Shown here: one piece after another, positions 4,578-26,448 of the stretch
How positions within the stretch are numbered: position 1 is the first letter of the stretch
Layout of the letters: every line of letters begins with the position of its first letter
Source: [Collinsella] massiliensis
GTDB lineage: Bacteria > Actinomycetota > Coriobacteriia > Coriobacteriales > Coriobacteriaceae
NCBI GenBank assembly: GCA_000333815.1
Contig: CAPI01000019.1
Location: forward strand, 1-64,000
Reading direction: 5' to 3'
DNA length: 64,000 nt
The notes under the pieces: model-generated
Seen by the model: the letters and a program-made list of their open reading frames with translations, nothing else
The model's database searches: none
Told to the model about the DNA's origin: nothing
Translations under genes and position numbers: made by a program

Positions 4578-7500
4578 ATGCCCCACAACAGAATCGCCCC
4601 GGCGCTCCTGAGCGCCGTCCTCGCCGTGAGCGTGATGCCCACCGGTGCGCTCGCTGCCAGCGAGCATTCCGCTCAGGCGACGGATTCCGCCGTGTCGCTC
4701 ACCACCGGAGAGGGCTCAAGCGAACTCGAAGCCCTCGAGAACGTCGAGGCCGCCCCGGAAAACAAGGGGAACGCCGACGAAGCGGCCAACGAGAACACCG
4801 AAGCCCTGGAAAGCCCCGAGGCAATCGCCGAGGCTCCCGCTACCGGGGAAAGCCCCGAGGAACCCGGCGCGCTCGCCGACACCGACACCACCACCAACAA
4901 CGACACCGCAGACGCAGCCGAGTCCGCGACCGATCCCTCGGAGGACGCCGGCATCGCCATCGTGCGCGACGGTGCGCGCACCACGTACGGCAGTCTCGCC
5001 GACGCCGTGGCCGACGCCCAGAGCGGCGACGTCATCGAGCTCTCCCGCGACCAGGTGCTCGACGAGCGGCTCGTCATCGCGGGCGACCGCGACATCACCC
5101 TGCGCGCCACGGCGCAGGTCACGCTGACCCGCAGCTCCTCCTTCCCCACGGCCGACAACAAGATCGCCGGGATGATCATCGTCAACGATGGCGCCAAGCT
5201 CACGCTCGAGCGCGCGGACGACGCGAGCTCCCTCACGCTGGACGGCGAGGAGAAGGATTCCAACGAGGCCATCATCACGCTGCGCAACGCGTCCAAGCTC
5301 ACCATGAACGAGGGCGCCTCGATCGTGCGCGCCCATTGCTCATGGAAGCCATGGGGCGCCGTGTACGTGCACTCCGGCACCTTCGTGCTCGACGGCGGCG
5401 AGATCCGCGACAGCTTCGCCATGCGCAACACCGCGGTTGCGGTCGAGGCTGCGGGCTCGTTCGAGATGCGCGGCGGCACCATCGCGAACAACCGTGCGAG
5501 CTACACCCAGACCATGGTCTGGACCAAGGGCTCGATCACCATGACGGGCGGCACCATCGCGAGCAACCGCTCGAACGTGTCGAGCGACGGCGTGGTGCAG
5601 GTGCTCTCGGGCGGCTCGCTCGCGTTCGAGGGCGGCACCATCGGCGACAACAACCCCAACAACACCTTCGGTGTGCGCGTGGACGGCGGCGGTTCGCTCG
5701 CGCTGGGCGCGGACGCCCACCTTGCGGGCGCCGACCGCATCGACCTCGCCCAGGGCGCAGCCCTGCGCTTCACGGGCACGCCGGCTGCCCACAGCATCGA
5801 CGAACCCATCGAAATCGTGCTCTCGGGCGAGTGGGCGGATGGCACGCTTCTCGCCGCGACGGACGCTCCCGAGACGGCGCGCGACGTCCTGGGCATCCTC
5901 TCCGTGAAGCACGGCGGGACGCGCGAGCAGCTCGCGACGGTGGGCATCGACCCCTCCAACGAGTGCAACATCGCCCTCGCCTCGGCCGATGTCGTGGCCG
6001 CGTTCGACGCGCTGGACAACCCCTTCGTCGACGACCTCGGCCTCGAGCTGCGCGACGAGCTCACCGCAGAGGGCGCCTTCGACCGCCTGCGCGACACGGT
6101 GGACGCGCACTTCGGCGATGCCGACACGCCCGAACGTCGCGTGCGCGTGCAGCAGATCGAGCGCCTCGAGCAGTACGCCGGCTACCTGAGCGCGCACCAC
6201 GAGGAGCTTGCGGCCTCGGTGCTCACCCTCTCCGAGCTGGGGAACCCCGGCGCCGAGGCGCAGCGCACCCAGCAGGGCTACCAGTTCGACAACCTCGACG
6301 CCACGGGGCTCTACCTCAAGCCGGGCAAGGTGCACGAGATCGTCGTCTACGTCGCGGCTAACGACCCCTCCCTGCTCTCCGTGGCGTGGCGCCAGGCGGG
6401 CGTCACCGACACCAACCACTACACCTCGCTCAACCTCGAGCAGAGGTCCAAGCTTACGCGCGGGGAGAACCGCATCACCATCGACCTCACCGGCAAGACG
6501 CACGGCTCGATGCTCTTTCTGCGCAACGACTCGACGAGCAATCCCGCGCGCGTGCGCATCGAGGCGTATGACGCTCCCTACGTGACCGCTGACGCCGAGG
6601 GCGGCGCGGACGCGGATGGCTCCACCGCCCGCGACGGCTCCGCGGCCGCCAACCCCGCGCTCGGCACGAGCCTGGGCGAGCACCCCCTCTACGTGCACGA
6701 TCCCGAGCAGCCCGAGCGCTTCTGGACCTTCGTCCAGGACGTCAAGGCGCACGCCGCGCGCGTCGAGGCGGGCGAGCAGGTCGCCGATATGGCGCTCGTG
6801 CAGATGGGCGACGACGGGCACGCGCAGTTCTCCATCAGCGCAACCGCGCTCGCGAAGGCATATGCCGGCATCACGAGCAAGGACGCCGCCGTGGCCTATA
6901 TCGAGCGCTCGAACGAGGCCATCCAGGACCGCCTCGAGTTCTTCTGGGCGTTCGACGGCTTCGACGCGGCCGAGAGCGGCCCCAACGCCATCTCGCCCGC
7001 GCGCGTGCACACCGCGTTCACGCGCACCGTCTCCAACCCCTCGACCATGTACGCCTTCGTGCGCTACTTCCACATGCCGGAGGGCTACGCCGCGTCGTTT
7101 TTGTCGGGCGAGAACATGTACACCTGGGGCATGTCGCACGAGTACGGGCACATGCTCGACAACAATGTCATCGCCGTTGCCGAGGAGACGAACAACCTGT
7201 ACTCCCTGGCGGGATCGCGCCAGGGCGGTATCGAGGCGTCGGCCGCGGCGGGCATCGCGTTCGACCCGGCGGCGTACTATCACGGGAACGCCGTGAAGGC
7301 CAACGAGCGCCGCGACGAGGAGCTGGCGAAGATGGCCGCCGACCCCACCTTCGTGCCGGATTGGATGAACAGCGGGGATTGGGGCACCTATATCTGGACC
7401 CACGTGACCACCTGGTGGAACGGCCTGCACTTCTTCGATGATTGGGACTACAGCGGCTATGACTACACCGCGAGCCCCTATACGCAAGAGATCGCGACAG

Positions 7501-19613: not shown

Positions 19614-19856
19614 ATGCGCCTTTCGAACGCCGAAAACGCTGTCCGCATTTCGCAAGCGGCAGAACTCGGCTCGCTTATCAGAACACGCAGAAAAAAACTT
19701 GGACTCACCCAAGAGTTTGTGGCGGCCATGATGGGATGCAGCCCGCGCCTCATCGGAGAGATAGAACGGGGTAAGCAAACCGTCTCCGTTCAAACGGTTA
19801 TCAATCTTGCCCAGGGACTCGGCATCGACCTGTTCGCCATCCCACGAGGAGCGTGA
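19614..19856 (+). CDS. hipB: HipB-like antitoxin, XRE family
   Basis: 80 residues with a single helix-turn-helix (LGSLIRTRRKKLGLTQEFVAAMMGCSPRLIGEIERGKQTVSVQTVINLAQGLGI). The length, sequence and position directly upstream of hipA identify it as the DNA-binding antitoxin. GAGGAG precedes the ATG. Its stop overlaps hipA by 4 bp, giving tight coupling. Three palindromic operators lie upstream. The locus has lower GC content and different codon use (AAA, TCG, CTT) from the flanks, and sits beside gene fragments, so it was probably acquired horizontally. Confidence 0.93.
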   Translation: MRLSNAENAVRISQAAELGSLIRTRRKKLGLTQEFVAAMMGCSPRLIGEIERGKQTVSVQTVINLAQGLGIDLFAIPRGA

Positions 19857-21133
19857 CGATGAAACTCAACGTTTTTCGAGAGCAGGACGAGGCGTATCAA
19901 CTAGTTGGAGCACTCGATTTTTCCGAAGTGTCGCTTACGTTCGCCTATGACCCCGCATATCTTGCAAGCTCAACAGCAAGCGCTGTGTCTTGCTCGCTGC
20001 CGCTTCGCGCCGAACCGTTTTCTCAAGAAGAGGCCTCGCCGTTTTTCGCCGGCCTCGCACCTGAAGGAGATATGAGGCGTCTTGTTGCCGAATCGATACA
20101 TTCGGATTACTTCGGCAACATGCTTGCTCGCCTCAATAACGAGTCCATCGGCGCCCTCATATTCAGTACAGACGAGACCGTAGAAAACGATGGTGGATAC
20201 ACAGAGATCGGACTCTCGGAGTTGCGCGCGCTACGCGATGCGCCCCGCGAAACATCGTTCAAGATGGGAATGGCCTCCCGCCTCTCACTCGCGGGAACCC
20301 AAAGCAAGGTCGGCCTTTACCATCAGGGAGAGGATCCGTCTTGCGGATGGTACGTACCCAGCGGCAATGCGGCAACGACCCATATCGTCAAAACACCGGA
20401 CCGCGTCTTTCCCCTTCAAACTGTCAATGAGGCGCTTTGCCTAGAAACAGCCAAGCGATGCGGATTTGACATAGCGGAATGGTCGCTCATCCCTATAGAA
20501 GAAGGCGAACCGCTCCTTGCTGTCAAACGATTCGACCGCATTACCGATGAGACGGTATCAGCCGAAAACAAACCGCTCAGGCCGAAGCGCCTGCATCAGG
20601 AAGACTTCTGCCAAGCTACGGGACTCATGCCCGACATGAAGTACGAGCCCACAAACGGAGCGTACCTCTCACGCTGCTGCAACGCCATACAAAGCGCATC
20701 AGCCAATCCTTTCGGAGATCGCGCATGCTTCTTGCAGACCATCTATTTTGACTATCTCATCGGCAATTGCGACAACCATCTCAAGAACCATTCTTTGCTG
20801 TGGGACCCATCTTGGAAAACTCCCATGCTCTCCCCGCTGTATGACATCACGTGCACAACGGTGTACCCACAAATCTACCTAGAAATGGGCGTGTCCCTCA
20901 CCTCTTCCCGACGCATTTGCGACGTTTCCGAGCAGGACGTCGAACGGGCTGGAAAAGCCGCAGGCATACCCCGGACTCTGGCGAGAAGCTTCTATCAGGA
21001 GCTTCTCCGCAACATCGTCCCTGCGCTCGACGCCGCGGAAGAAGCGGTAGCATCAGCAGGTTTTGCAACGGAGGCGCACAAGATTGCGCAGCATATTCGC
21101 AAGGAGCTGAGCCAGAAAGTCAAGCTAAGCTAG
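19853..21133 (+). CDS. hipA: HipA-like serine/threonine kinase toxin
   Basis: 426 residues, near the length of E. coli HipA, with both the N-terminal HipA subdomain and the kinase core. Visible motifs include SLAGTQSKVGLY near residue 140 (the ATP-loop region of HipA), LLAVKRFDR, the catalytic loop GNCDNHLKNHSL and the metal-binding YDITCTT. HipA phosphorylates a translation factor such as glutamyl-tRNA synthetase and causes dormancy unless bound by HipB. No disruption is seen, so the toxin appears intact. The target in this organism is unknown. Confidence 0.93.
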   Translation: MTMKLNVFREQDEAYQLVGALDFSEVSLTFAYDPAYLASSTASAVSCSLPLRAEPFSQEEASPFFAGLAPEGDMRRLVAESIHSDYFGNMLARLNNESIGALIFSTDETVENDGGYTEIGLSELRALRDAPRETSFKMGMASRLSLAGTQSKVGLYHQGEDPSCGWYVPSGNAATTHIVKTPDRVFPLQTVNEALCLETAKRCGFDIAEWSLIPIEEGEPLLAVKRFDRITDETVSAENKPLRPKRLHQEDFCQATGLMPDMKYEPTNGAYLSRCCNAIQSASANPFGDRACFLQTIYFDYLIGNCDNHLKNHSLLWDPSWKTPMLSPLYDITCTTVYPQIYLEMGVSLTSSRRICDVSEQDVERAGKAAGIPRTLARSFYQELLRNIVPALDAAEEAVASAGFATEAHKIAQHIRKELSQKVKLS

Positions 21134-22365: not shown

Positions 22366-23130
22366 CTACGCGAGACGATCGCGCTCTGCGGCAAGCTGCC
22401 GGGCATACCGGCGAAGCGCCCAGACCGCAAGCGCGCCCGAGGCGATGAGCCAGAATAGAAGCACCGCGAAAAGCACCGGAACAGGTACTATGGGTGCAAG
22501 CCCCTGCGCCGTTCGAACCAACTCGACAGCAGGCCCCAAGGGCAGCAGCCACGTTACCGCGCGCACCGATACCGACATGAACGAGAGAATGGGCGCGACA
22601 GCAACAAGCGTGAGCGGGGCGGCGAGAACGCTCGATGACATTTGCTCGGTCGCCATAAGTCCGCAGGCAAGTCCCGCAAGCAGCAACGGTTGCATCACCA
22701 CGAGTGCGAACGCACCGAGTCCGAGCGTTTGCACAGGCGAGAAACCCAGAAGCAGACAGGCAACGACCTGCGCGAAGAGCGCCGCCAGGGTTCCAGCGAG
22801 CCATTTCGACACAGCGAACGCACGGGGTGTCACCCCAGCCTCAGCGAGTGTGAGGCAAACGCCGCGCTCGCGCTCCTCGGCCATCACATAGAGCAGCATC
22901 ACGCAACCCGTGAAGGCAGGCGGGATACAAAGCGCAGCCGTGCACGCATATGCGGGCAGCTCACCGGCAGCGAATCTCGGCGCATGCTCGACGATGCGCA
23001 CGATGAACACAGCCAGAGCCACCCCCACCGCACCTGACATGAACAGGGTGGAGTTGCGCACCGCATCCAAAAGGTCGCGCGCCACAAGCGCACGTATGGT
23101 AGCAAATGTCCTTCCCATCATGCGACCCAT
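22366..23130 (-). CDS. ABC-2 type transporter permease
   Basis: 254 residues with six hydrophobic segments and the short cytoplasmic N-terminus typical of ABC-2 permeases; a central EERERGVCLTLAEAGVTPRAFAVSKW loop matches the coupling region. It resembles the permease at 25687 in size and order. No ATPase is adjacent on its own strand; the ATPase at 24832 could serve both permeases. It is divergent from the LytTR gene 117 bp away, sharing a control region. The start could be any of three Met codons (23130, 23121, 23118). Confidence 0.82.
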   Translation of the reverse strand: MGRMMGRTFATIRALVARDLLDAVRNSTLFMSGAVGVALAVFIVRIVEHAPRFAAGELPAYACTAALCIPPAFTGCVMLLYVMAEERERGVCLTLAEAGVTPRAFAVSKWLAGTLAALFAQVVACLLLGFSPVQTLGLGAFALVVMQPLLLAGLACGLMATEQMSSSVLAAPLTLVAVAPILSFMSVSVRAVTWLLPLGPAVELVRTAQGLAPIVPVPVLFAVLLFWLIASGALAVWALRRYARQLAAERDRLA

Positions 23131-23247
23131 GATACCCGATATACTGAACAGGGCAGGATGCAGCGGGATCGAAAAACAACCGCGCTACACCGCGAAGCGA
23201 CGGGCGCCGGCCTGCTCGTTCCGCCCTCAGCGAAAAGGAGGCTACCA

Positions 23248-24174
23248 GTGGCCGCAGCGACATCCTACGACAGCATCGAAGAGCTGCTCGAGGCACGCGC
23301 AGATGAGAGCGTGCACCTCGAATGCTCGCGCGAGACCGTCGATCGCGCGGTACGCTTTGTTCACGAGCGCTACGCGCGGCGCCGCTGCGCCTTCTACCTC
23401 ATCACCGACCGGGGGTTCGATCGCGAGACCGTCCGTTCCTACCTCAAGTTCTTCTCGCGCCTCGCGGGCGGCGTCGTCTCTGCCGACGACGTGCTGACGC
23501 ACTTCGGCCTCTCACCTGCCGCGCGCACCCCCGTCAAAAAGCTCAATCCCGAGCAACGCGCGCTCATGAACTTCGCACGCATGAGCCTCTTCGAACCCGA
23601 GGTGGTATTCTGCGAGCGACCCCTTGCCGATATCACCCCTGCCACACGCGGCATCGTAACCGCCTGGATGGGAACGGTCGTTGACGACGGCGGCATCCTC
23701 ATCACAGCCGGCGAGCCTCTGCGCGAAGCGCTCCTCATGCCCGGCACGGCCTTTTATGAAGAAGATGGCCGCCTGTTCGAGGCGCAGACCGCTGTGGGCG
23801 AGGACGATGAAGGCGAGTATGCAGGCGACGAGGTACGCGTATTCAAGCTGCCCGCACGCGTGGATGGTGCGACGCTGCTCCTCGACCCGCGCGAGGTCGA
23901 CTTCGTGGAAAGCGTGAACCGGCAGAACTTCGCCTCCGTCCGCGGGGAGCTCTATCCCGTCACGCTCACGCTCGACGAGCTTGAGGTGGAGCTCGAGCGC
24001 TTCGGCTTCTTTCGCTGCCATCGCTCGTACATCGTGAACGTGCAGAAGGTGGCGAAGGTCGAGCGCTTCACCCGCAACAGCTTCAATCTGACGCTCGCCG
24101 ACGCACGGGCGACGCAGGTTCCACTTGCCAAGGGGCGCGCCGAGGCCATGCGCGAGCGCTACGGCTGGCGCTAG
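23248..24174 (+). CDS. LytTR regulator with degenerate ABC-ATPase N-terminal domain
   Basis: 308 residues from the GTG at 23248, preceded by AAAAGGAGG. The C-terminal 100 residues are a LytTR DNA-binding domain (LLLDPREVDFVESVNRQNFASVRG, FFRCHRSYIVNVQKVAKV, then FNLTLADARATQVPLAKG). Residues about 85-165 read like the second half of an ABC ATPase: KKLNPEQRALMNFARMSLF in place of the LSGGQ helix, EPEVVFCERPLADI in place of Walker B and D-loop, then GGILITAGEPL where a switch strand would be. There is no Walker A lysine motif, so ATP hydrolysis is unlikely. It lies between two ABC-2 transporter genes and probably controls them. A TATACT -10-like box is at 23140. Confidence 0.82.
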   Translation: MAAATSYDSIEELLEARADESVHLECSRETVDRAVRFVHERYARRRCAFYLITDRGFDRETVRSYLKFFSRLAGGVVSADDVLTHFGLSPAARTPVKKLNPEQRALMNFARMSLFEPEVVFCERPLADITPATRGIVTAWMGTVVDDGGILITAGEPLREALLMPGTAFYEEDGRLFEAQTAVGEDDEGEYAGDEVRVFKLPARVDGATLLLDPREVDFVESVNRQNFASVRGELYPVTLTLDELEVELERFGFFRCHRSYIVNVQKVAKVERFTRNSFNLTLADARATQVPLAKGRAEAMRERYGWR

Positions 24175-24183
24175 CAGCGACGG

Positions 24184-24528
24184 CTAGCGTAGCGCGACGA
24201 CGCGCCGCCATGGCCTGATCTTGCTCAGTTCAGGTTCGAGCTTTCGGCGCGCGACCTCGATGTCGTATGCAGCCTGCGCGCGCAGCCAGTAGCCATCGGA
24301 CAGCCCGAAAAACCGGCACAGCCGCAAATCGGTATCGGCCGTGATGGAGCGGCGCCCGAGCACGATCTGCCCGATCCGCTGCACGGGAATGCCCGTCTCC
24401 TTTGCCAAGCGATACTGCGAGATGCCGAGCGGGACGAGAAACTCCTCCCGCAGCAGCTCGCCCGGCGTAACCGGGTCGAGCGGAATACCCGCAGGCACCG
24501 TCTCAACGATAGTCGACGATTTCAACAT
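24184..24528 (-). CDS. higA: HigA-type antitoxin, XRE family
   Basis: 114 residues with PLDPVTPGELLREEFLVPLGISQYRLAKETGIPVQRIGQIVLGRRSITADTDLRLCRFFGLSDGYWLRAQAAYDIE, the HigA/VapI signature. Its ribosome site AAGGAGGTACTGAGG is strong. The partner toxin HigB normally precedes it; here only the last two dozen HigB residues remain (24503-24577), so it is an orphan antitoxin. It may still act as a repressor: a perfect 12-bp palindrome GAACATATGTTC lies at 24588-24599 in an AT-rich region suited to a promoter. Confidence 0.92.
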   Translation of the reverse strand: MLKSSTIVETVPAGIPLDPVTPGELLREEFLVPLGISQYRLAKETGIPVQRIGQIVLGRRSITADTDLRLCRFFGLSDGYWLRAQAAYDIEVARRKLEPELSKIRPWRRVVALR

Positions 24529-24641: not shown

Positions 24642-24695
24642 CTCCTGTCGTCGCCCCCTATGCTCCTCTCGTCGTTTTCCCTGCTCCTGATAGAC
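24642..24695. promoter_or_regulatory. Three phased direct repeats upstream of the ABC operon
   Basis: CTCCTGTCGTCG (24642), CTCCTCTCGTCG (24663) and CTCCTGATAGAC (24684) start exactly 21 bp apart. The first two differ at one base; the third shares the CTCCTG half. A 21-bp period is typical of paired LytTR binding repeats, and a LytTR gene lies just upstream. The ABC ATPase starts 137 bp downstream. Confidence 0.45.
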
Positions 24696-24831
24696 AAAAC
24701 GCCTTGCCTGCACTCGCCTCCCCGACGAGGATGAGGCCACGGGCAAACACCCAGCCATCCACCGGAAACGACGAAAGGAAGCCTCATGAGGAAACAAGGA
24801 ATCGAACGCGACGCACGGAAGGAGCAGAACG

Positions 24832-25686
24832 ATGAGCGCAACGCATAATGCCGTCCTCTCCATGGAGGGCGTCTGCCTCTCCTTCGGCGCGAAGCGCGTA
24901 CTCGACGGCCTCACGTTCAGCGTGGAGCGGGGCACATGCTTCGGCTTCCTCGGCCCCTCAGGCGCGGGTAAGACGACCACGATCAAGCTGCTCACCCGCC
25001 AGCTTACGGCAGACGCCGGGCGCATCGGCCTCTTCGGACGCCCCATTGAGCACGCGAGTGGTGCGGATTACGACCGCATCGGAATCCTCTCGGACACAAG
25101 CTCCCTCTACGAACGGCTCTCCATCGAGGAGAACCTCAGACTCTATGCGCACATCCGCGGGCGCGGAGCACGCGACATCGACCGCTTGCTCGAGCGGATG
25201 GGACTCGACCGCGACCGCCGTACCCTCATCAAGAACTGCTCGAAGGGCATGCGGCAGCGCGCAGCGCTCCTCGCTGCCCTCATCCACAGCCCGGAGCTCG
25301 TCTTCCTTGACGAACCCACAAGCGGCCTCGATCCGGCGGCTCGCGCCGAGGTGCACCGGATGCTCGCCGAGCTTAAGCGCGGGGGCACCACCATCTTCAT
25401 CACGACACACGACATGACCGAGGCCGAGACGCTCTGCGACCAGCTCGCCATCCTCGATGCCGGACGCATCATCGCGCTCGACGCGCCGGCATCGCTTACC
25501 ATGAGGTTCGCGCGCAACCGCATCGTGGTCACGACGCGCACCCAAGGCGTCCTCGAGCTAACAAAAGACGCCAAGGCCGCAAACACCGTGCGCGACCTGC
25601 TCGCTGCGGGCGAGGTCATCACCATGCACTCGGATGAACCCGATCTCGAGGAAGTCTTCCTCGAGCTCACCGGAAGGGAGTTTTAG
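24832..25686 (+). CDS. ABC-2 transporter ATP-binding protein
   Basis: 284 residues. Walker A GPSGAGKTTT, Q-loop region, signature CSKGMRQRAAL, Walker B LVFLDEPTSGLD and switch TTHD are all present. The C-terminal extension ends in DEPDLEEVFLELTGREF, usual for drug or peptide export ATPases. The ATG follows GGAAGGAGCAGAACG. The permease gene begins directly after the stop. A 20-codon ORF (24786-24848, starting MRKQGIERD) with its own AAAGGAAG site overlaps the ATPase start and might be a coupling leader, though this is unproven. Confidence 0.92.
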   Translation: MSATHNAVLSMEGVCLSFGAKRVLDGLTFSVERGTCFGFLGPSGAGKTTTIKLLTRQLTADAGRIGLFGRPIEHASGADYDRIGILSDTSSLYERLSIEENLRLYAHIRGRGARDIDRLLERMGLDRDRRTLIKNCSKGMRQRAALLAALIHSPELVFLDEPTSGLDPAARAEVHRMLAELKRGGTTIFITTHDMTEAETLCDQLAILDAGRIIALDAPASLTMRFARNRIVVTTRTQGVLELTKDAKAANTVRDLLAAGEVITMHSDEPDLEEVFLELTGREF

Positions 25687-26448
25687 ATGAACGCGACCCT
25701 GCGGCGCATCGGCGCCCTGGCAAACAAGGACTTCGCCGACCTGTTCAAGAATCCCACGATGTTCACAGTGTGTCTCATGCCCATCGGCTTTATGCTGCTC
25801 TTCCGCTTAATCATGGGCGACACCACCGCAGGCTCAGATCTCACCGGCGCCGAGGCCGCGCGGGCGGGGGAGGCAGTCGGGCGCTACCTACTCGGCTCCG
25901 GCTTGTGCATGTCCGTCGGCATGGTAGTTCCCATGGTGCTCATCTACGGCATCGCCGAGGAGAAGGAGAAGCGCACCCTGCGCACGCTCATGCTCGCCAA
26001 CGTGGGGGCGGGCGAGGTCGCAACCTCGAAAGGCGCTGTGGCGCTGGCAGCGACCATGGTGGTGGGCGCGGGTTGCTTCTTCGCTGCCGGCGGCGCGCCG
26101 GGGCTCTTGCCCGCATACCTGCTCCTCACCTTCCTGGGCGCGGTGCCGGTGACGCTCATCTCCCTCGTGCTGGGGCTCGCGTCGCGCGACCAGATGACCG
26201 CCGGGTTCTTCAGCGTGCCCGTGTTGCTGCTCGTGCTCGTTCCGACCTTCGGCGTGGCGAGCGCGGCGATCGAGGCCTTTGCTCGCGTGACCCCGCTCGG
26301 CGGCGTCTACGACCTGCTCAACCTTGCCGCAGAGGGGCAGCTCCTCACAGCGGAAGCGCTCACGCCGCTCGCCGTGACCCTCGCCTGGACGGCGGCGGGC
26401 GCCGTCGCGTTCGCAGCCCTCTTCCGCCGGCTCGCGCGCGACAACTGA
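25687..26448 (+). CDS. ABC-2 type transporter permease
   Basis: 253 residues with six hydrophobic segments. It begins LRRIGALANKDFADLFKNPTMF, a classic ABC-2 permease N-terminus, and contains the EEKEKRTLRTLMLANVGAGEVATSK coupling loop. It follows the ATPase stop with no gap and certainly works with it. Together they form an exporter, possibly for a peptide or antibiotic; the cargo is unknown. Regulation by the upstream LytTR protein is the most economical reading of the locus. Confidence 0.9.
   Translation: MNATLRRIGALANKDFADLFKNPTMFTVCLMPIGFMLLFRLIMGDTTAGSDLTGAEAARAGEAVGRYLLGSGLCMSVGMVVPMVLIYGIAEEKEKRTLRTLMLANVGAGEVATSKGAVALAATMVVGAGCFFAAGGAPGLLPAYLLLTFLGAVPVTLISLVLGLASRDQMTAGFFSVPVLLLVLVPTFGVASAAIEAFARVTPLGGVYDLLNLAAEGQLLTAEALTPLAVTLAWTAAGAVAFAALFRRLARDN

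Follow-up and report, generated by a model that had tools for sequence, protein, structure and literature searches.

The gene at 23248-24174 encodes a transcriptional regulator that joins a degenerate ABC ATPase domain, predicted to be catalytically dead, to a LytTR DNA-binding domain, and a predicted LytTR operator lies in front of the neighboring ATPase-permease operon. We propose that the protein is an activator of this one operon and that its ABC-derived domain probably retains the ability to dock on a permease or pairs with the ATPase, a reading to which we give about even weight. The fold of the N-terminal half, the loss of its active site, selection on the gene, its shared inheritance with the transporter and the layout and specificity of the operator are supported by computation. 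The features of the window, by which we mean the whole 64-kb stretch of DNA that was analyzed, are as follows for the regulator and its transporter genes.

22366-23130, minus strand: PER1, a second ABC-2-like permease, transcribed divergently to the regulator; 24.4 bits, short of the 31.6-bit cut-off
23248-24174, plus strand: pseudo-ABC-ATPase/LytTR regulator, 308 aa, GTG start
23260-23793, plus strand: ABC nucleotide-binding domain, degenerate and truncated (residues ~5-182)
23872-24159, plus strand: LytTR DNA-binding domain (Pfam; Foldseek match to 3d6w)
24832-25686, plus strand: partner ABC ATPase; Walker A present, TTHD, Asp at the Q-loop position
25687-26448, plus strand: ABC-2 permease (PER2), directly 3' of the ATPase; 32.3 bits

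The frame of the regulator is open from an ATG at 23158, and its closest orthologues start aligning at about 23248, the position of the GTG. A Pfam scan of the regulator recovered the LytTR family (PF04397) with E 3.6e-19 and 69.2 bits against a cut-off of 22.6, confirming the fusion to LytTR that the original prediction had proposed; a receiver domain was absent at E <= 1. The same prediction had placed the gene between an ABC-2 permease, an ATPase and a further permease, and this arrangement is borne out by the matches of PER1, the ATPase and PER2. Both permeases match ABC2_membrane families in the Pfam scan and neither DUF3021 nor DUF2154. Two toxin-antitoxin-like elements were seen nearby. 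A HigA-family antitoxin gene lies between the regulator and the operator array (24184-24528, minus strand; TIGR02607, 96.3 bits, cut-off 47.7), and a HipBA-type pair at 19614-21133 (plus strand) consists of a small HTH gene, whose best NCBIfam match is couple_hipB at 60.7 bits, below the cut-off of 71.65, followed by a HipA-like kinase gene (HipA_C, Couple_hipA).

The ABC ancestry of the N-terminal half is faint at the level of single models. The window regulator has no ABC_tran match in Pfam at E <= 1 and stays below the gathering score, the NCBIfam model ccmA matches weakly (E 1e-4, 22 bits, far under its cut-off), and NosF from the PDB is found with E 0.004 using the single sequence and with E 4.8e-5 using a profile of 11 orthologues. 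Comparison of this profile with that of the 11 neighboring ATPases gave a probability of 95.1 and E 3.4e-8 over 135 columns. The segment LNPEQRALMNFARMSLFEPEVVFCERPLADITP, which had originally been matched to ABC ATPases by eye, indeed aligns with a 33-residue stretch of the neighboring ATPase. The degenerate motifs of the domain are a signature LNPEQ, a Walker B FCER and an H-loop AGE, and there is no Walker A.

Structure prediction gave the same answer. A first AlphaFold model, built from 11 sequences, reached a mean pLDDT of 69.6; Foldseek returned 512 matches for it at E <= 1e-3, and the best 50 listed are ABC ATPase entries by title. In VIA-align, run on 998 chains preselected by Foldseek, Z was >= 5 in all 998 and >= 8 in 991, and the best 50 of them are, judged from their titles, ABC-type ATPases. 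The best alignment had Z 16.3 at 2.8 A over 171 residues, so that the fold comparison which the original prediction had named as its critical check came out in favor of an ABC nucleotide-binding domain. A second model from 24 sequences reached a mean of 79.7, with blocks of 83-96 in residues 11-180, and again matched ABC ATPases, together with the LytTR structure 3d6w. In these models the regulator has the RecA-like core and the helical subdomain of ABC nucleotide-binding domains.

Relatives outside the Coriobacteriia make the ancestry easier to follow. A tblastn search over 72,556 plasmid records gave 10 records with matches, 6 of which cover >= 80% of the query. The homologue from Subdoligranulum variabile is 42% identical over 84%, and those from Priestia (WP_099331387.1, WP_034655952.1) are 27-31% identical over 81-85%. 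Pfam recognizes both domains in the Priestia proteins, with ABC_tran at 44.1 and 43.5 bits (cut-off 25) and LytTR at 84.8 and 92.3 bits (cut-off 22.6). The ABC_tran score falls to 22.5 bits in Subdoligranulum, to 14.1 in Gordonibacter and to none in the window, and therefore the ABC signal fades stepwise. The gene order regulator-ATPase-permease is annotated in Priestia and is found in the reading frames of Subdoligranulum, and the three permeases of these loci exceed the ABC2_membrane_3 cut-off; in Priestia, each of the two loci is annotated with one ABC permease. A chance resemblance to ABC ATPases is ruled out by profile, fold and intermediate sequences. The apparent derivation of the regulator from a transporter ATPase is supported by these Pfam-recognized relatives and by the co-occurrence with an ATPase-permease pair. 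On one Priestia megaterium plasmid (L101, NZ_CP120606.1) the ABC part and the LytTR part are annotated as two genes, the first of them as an ATP-binding cassette protein; for the fused genes of Priestia the annotation names LytTR alone. Mersacidin-family lantibiotic genes lie close to this locus and to L100.

We aligned 14 regulators jointly with their 14 partner ATPases. All 14 ATPases keep the Lys and Thr of Walker A, the Ser and Gly of the signature, the Walker B Asp, the catalytic Glu, the D-loop Asp and the H-loop His, with Asp at the Q-loop position. All 14 regulators have lost the Walker A Lys and Thr, in agreement with the missing Walker A of the original prediction, as well as the signature Gly and the H-loop His, and they carry Glu in place of the Walker B Asp. 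The catalytic Glu is Arg or His in 11 of the 14 and is kept in three Bacillota sequences; the D-loop Asp is retained in four. In the Coriobacteriia forms and in Subdoligranulum the P-loop and most of the beta subdomain are deleted. By its sequence, the ABC domain of the regulator is predicted to be catalytically dead.

The gene itself is under purifying selection. LytTR had the lowest median pN/pS over 55 orthologue pairs (0.20), followed by the dead domain (0.44) and the linker (0.58), ratios that are rough at a median dS of 0.8-0.95. Mean column identity was 81% among 11 regulator orthologues and 82% among their partner ATPases. With this identity and a median pN/pS that stays under 1 in every domain, a pseudogene or decaying gene is ruled out.

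Of 296 sampled Coriobacteriia genomes, 38 have a full-length homologue (E <= 1e-20). A scan of 84,980 species genomes, which reaches just those relatives that carry one of two short peptides, returned 27 loci; the seven genera checked are all Coriobacteriia, and we take the remaining named genera to belong to this class too. Among 60 related genomes, the same 11 carry the full-length regulator, the ATPase (E <= 1e-60) and PER2 (E <= 1e-15). In the 27 loci that we compared (the window and L043-L068), ATPase and PER2 stand together with the regulator in 22, and a second permease, judged by PER1/PER2 matches, adjoins the regulator in 23. No PER1 was found beside the regulator in the other four, and the annotation of the two Priestia loci shows none next to it; PER1 is therefore not the universal partner. 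Layouts vary, in that PER1 is divergent from the regulator or the regulator runs into a permease gene, and in the latter case the ATPase operon is divergent or downstream. A search of Candidatus Aveggerthella (L049) for the partner ATPase gave nothing at E <= 1e-40. A separate contig of Collinsella ihumii (L069) carries an isolated stretch at 6001-6135 that matches residues 190-234, the linker and the first part of LytTR, at 76% identity; the same strain has its full gene on another contig (L060), and the stretch is a gene remnant or a partial duplication.

The ATPase-PER2 operon is preceded by 9-bp direct repeats, TCCTNTCGT, with a period of 21 bp, which we predict to be a LytTR operator. The array and the promoter predicted behind it comprise the following elements.

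24643-24651, plus strand: operator repeat 1, TCCTGTCGT
24664-24672, plus strand: operator repeat 2, TCCTCTCGT, after a 12-bp spacer
24685-24693, plus strand: operator repeat 3, degenerate, TCCTGATAG, after a 12-bp spacer
24704-24709, plus strand: predicted -35, TTGCCT, 10 bp after repeat 3
24727-24732, plus strand: predicted -10, GAGGAT, weak, after a 17-bp spacer

We searched for two copies of CTCCTNTCGT, 20-22 bp apart, with at most three mismatches in all. At this setting the pattern is present in all 22 ATPase-holding loci, and it occurs at a single place in the window. At <= 2 mismatches it was found in 13 of the 60 related genomes, namely the 11 with the regulator and two without (G053, G056), and the window's genome has one operator site. 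The reversed control matched 19 of the 60 at this threshold, and such matches therefore count by position only. At <= 1 mismatch the pattern occurs in 35 of the 38 Coriobacteriia genomes with the gene and in none of the 258 without it (36 sites in 35 genomes; reversed control, 6 of 296). The pattern was drawn from these loci, so matches there are not an independent test, and the absence from the other 258 genomes is one. In the remaining three gene-bearing genomes (G020, G168, G267) the array is in place with two or three mismatches. In one genome (G248) the regulator gene is present twice, and so is the array.

The array stays with the ATPase operon. It precedes this operon in all 20 regions from the class genomes, five of which are contigs already in the first locus set, including regions with a different order or distance (L110-L112, L119). 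Gene and array are on separate contigs in G125 and G234. In Slackia equolifaciens (L050/L122) regulator and ATPase operon are on different contigs, with the array at the ATPase operon. The same placement of the array was seen in Raoultibacter timonensis (L061/L123), where the regulator is distant, about 18 kb from the ATPase operon if G315:C1 is the same contig. The motif was not found between regulator and PER1 in the window's layout. One locus (L048) has an extra three-mismatch match outside the module, and the regulator may have a looser regulon. Outside the class, three repeats of equal period stand at the corresponding place in Subdoligranulum: with the motif, 0 of 300 shuffles were as good, and for repetition alone 10 of 500. 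The third repeat stands at the same 43-bp distance from a -10, TAAAAT. On one Priestia plasmid 1 of 300 shuffles was as good as the motif, but an equal match lies elsewhere in the locus, and on the other plasmid 38 of 300 were as good; we find the candidate motif in these loci unconvincing.

For the promoter we scanned 46 loci and aligned 27 non-identical, long-enough arrays with <= 3 mismatches at their first repeat. Allowing for L055, which is out of register by one repeat, and for the four-repeat arrays L062-L064, whose register is uncertain, the aligned columns show T at +62 in 26 of the 27, T at +63 in 14 and G at +64 in 18, and further downstream A at +86 in 20, T at +90 in 19 and G at +91 in 25. 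These counts fit a promoter TTGnnn, 17 bp, nAnnnT, with repeat 3 ending 10 bp before the -35. In published LytTR operons the direct repeats are 9 bp long and usually separated by 12 bp, and they strongly favor a distance of 10 bp to the -35 downstream of them (PMC6193735); AgrA sites are centered near -60 (PMC4227749). The predicted array of the window has the published layout of 9 bp, 12-bp spacers and 10 bp to the -35. Its position before the ATPase-PER2 pair supports a putative control of the transporter genes by the regulator. Between predicted promoter and ATPase, reading frames for one or two short proteins, each with one hydrophobic stretch, are present in 20 of 24 loci (L045, L046, L048, L051, L054, L056, L059, L066 and others) and were not found in the window (24727-24851), L058, L098 and L111. 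Those of L046 have 72 and 50 aa, neither above any Pfam cut-off. Such proteins could be cargo, accessory or inhibitor peptides.

In the mechanism that we propose, the LytTR domain would bind the 9-bp repeats, which recur every two turns of the helix directly ahead of the -35 of the ATPase-PER2 operon, and the bound regulator would help RNA polymerase at this promoter; the layout is what suggests activation. The N-terminal half would descend from an ABC ATPase subunit and would have kept its overall shape after catalysis was lost. This dead domain would dock on PER1, its usual gene neighbor, or on PER2, or pair with the live ATPase, and the state or occupancy of the transporter would set how much regulator is free or rightly dimerized to activate. 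We infer DNA binding, activation over repression, docking and the signal, and docking-based coupling to the transporter with less confidence than LytTR binding and activation.

Docking is suggested because of the origin of the domain, the shared inheritance with the transporter and the frequent neighbor permease. We compared regulators and ATPases in the segment that we take to contact the permease, where docking predicts an enriched similarity. Similarity was not raised, with 24% in this segment vs 19-25% elsewhere in the core, and cognate pairs were no more alike there than other pairs (24% vs 23%). This enrichment is consequently not supported. The loss of most of the beta subdomain in the Coriobacteriia form also weighs against the proposed reading, as do the unconvincing motif of Priestia and the L049 locus with no partner ATPase at the threshold used. 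The transporter-to-promoter signaling of the original prediction is partly supported, by the ATPase-derived regulator and the operator-like array at the transporter genes; its core, a dead domain that would dock and report transporter state, did not gain the raised similarity in the docking segment. The operator is well supported at the sequence level; the transporter-to-promoter link is a testable hypothesis.

The missing enrichment fits a soluble one-component regulator, in which the dead ATPase domain would be a dimerization or ligand-binding module that never touches the transporter and the former nucleotide pocket would now bind a small molecule or peptide. We regard this as unlikely and nevertheless as a serious rival. 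Residues conserved in 24 homologues include positions of the old pocket, namely E25 and C26 at the former P-loop position and R159-L163, P165 and G166 after the former H-loop, and these speak for it; the conservation of operator and module fits it equally well. It leaves unexplained, however, why the domain comes from an ABC subunit and why the gene travels with an ATPase-permease pair. In another reading the protein would be a structural subunit of a heterodimeric exporter (ATPase plus dead ATPase, PER2 plus PER1), in which it would serve as the second, degenerate ATPase, and its LytTR tail would add gene control. Most clusters have two permeases and two ATPase-like proteins, and in L108, L110 and L114-L118 the regulator runs directly into a permease gene, as in ATPase-permease pairs. 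Known degenerate heterodimers, by contrast, keep a canonical composite ATP site. Here Walker A and the signature glycine are both lost, so that neither composite site would be canonical, most of the beta subdomain is missing, and the two Priestia loci have a single annotated ABC permease each; we consider such a structural role improbable. Repression of the ATPase operon from the same operator is the least probable reading. CoxC, a LytTR protein with three direct repeats, speaks for it, being a repressor with sites that overlap the -35 (PMC11347149). Against it, the repeats of the window end 10 bp before the -35, as in activating LytTR systems (PMC6193735 and, for AgrA, PMC4227749), and the -10 is weak.

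The activator with a docking domain also has a more specific form, in which a dead transporter subunit serves as a membrane receptor. The pseudo-ATPase might take the place of a live ATPase on PER1 or PER2, and substrate- or ATP-driven movement of the permease might pass to LytTR and switch on the exporter from a single operator; we advance this tentatively, at somewhat less than even confidence. If it holds, the fold of a transport subunit would connect transporter and promoter directly, bypassing any kinase. Bacterial transporters are known to inform gene control via separate kinases or via free regulators that bind the live ATPase. A transcription factor that is half dead transporter motor, tied to a single exporter and a single operator, would form a direct circuit with a minimum of parts, and the named repeats, promoter and partner genes make the link testable at the bench.

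Among known systems, the LytTR Regulatory Systems (LRS; HdrRM, BrsRM, SMU_433/434) are alike in that a LytTR regulator is linked to a membrane protein, in some cases with linked ABC transporter genes, and in their operators, whose direct repeats of 9 bp are mostly separated by 12 bp and followed after 10 bp by the -35 (PMC6193735). The repeat TCCTAGTAA-12-TCCTTGTGT of that study is partly similar to ours, though it stands 4 bp before its promoter (PMC6193735). The regulators differ, since those of the LRS have no ABC-like domain, which the window regulator has, and are held by a membrane inhibitor, DUF3021 or DUF2154 in four of five S. mutans cases; the LRS operator lies on its own operon, that of the window on the ATPase operon (PMC6193735). 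With its extra ABC-like domain and adjoining permeases without DUF3021 or DUF2154, the window's system falls outside the LRS. CoxC and RcoM resemble the regulator as one-component fusions of a sensor to LytTR with three direct repeats 12-13 bp apart, and differ in sensing gases via other domains and, for CoxC, in repressing (PMC11347149).

The closest likeness is to the Priestia ABC_tran plus LytTR proteins, which are homologous, have lost Walker A and share the order with ATPase and ABC-2 permease. Unlike the Coriobacteriia form, which is truncated and invisible to Pfam, they have a full-length, Pfam-recognized ABC domain that retains the catalytic Glu. The ABC plus LytTR architecture itself is thus already in public records, and we take IPR012046/PIRSF036612 of InterPro/PIRSF to be the LytTR-ABC family. 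The 2002 paper that named the LytTR domain may mention the architecture. Among the papers that our literature search listed, judged by title and opening of the abstract, none describes an ABC-LytTR fusion or deals with the function, degeneration or operator of such proteins. MalK-MalT and BceAB-BceRS feed the state of an ABC transporter into gene control, which is their likeness to the window. In those systems a live ATPase or transporter talks to a separate regulator or kinase, whereas in the window regulator the ATPase-derived domain is part of the regulator itself.
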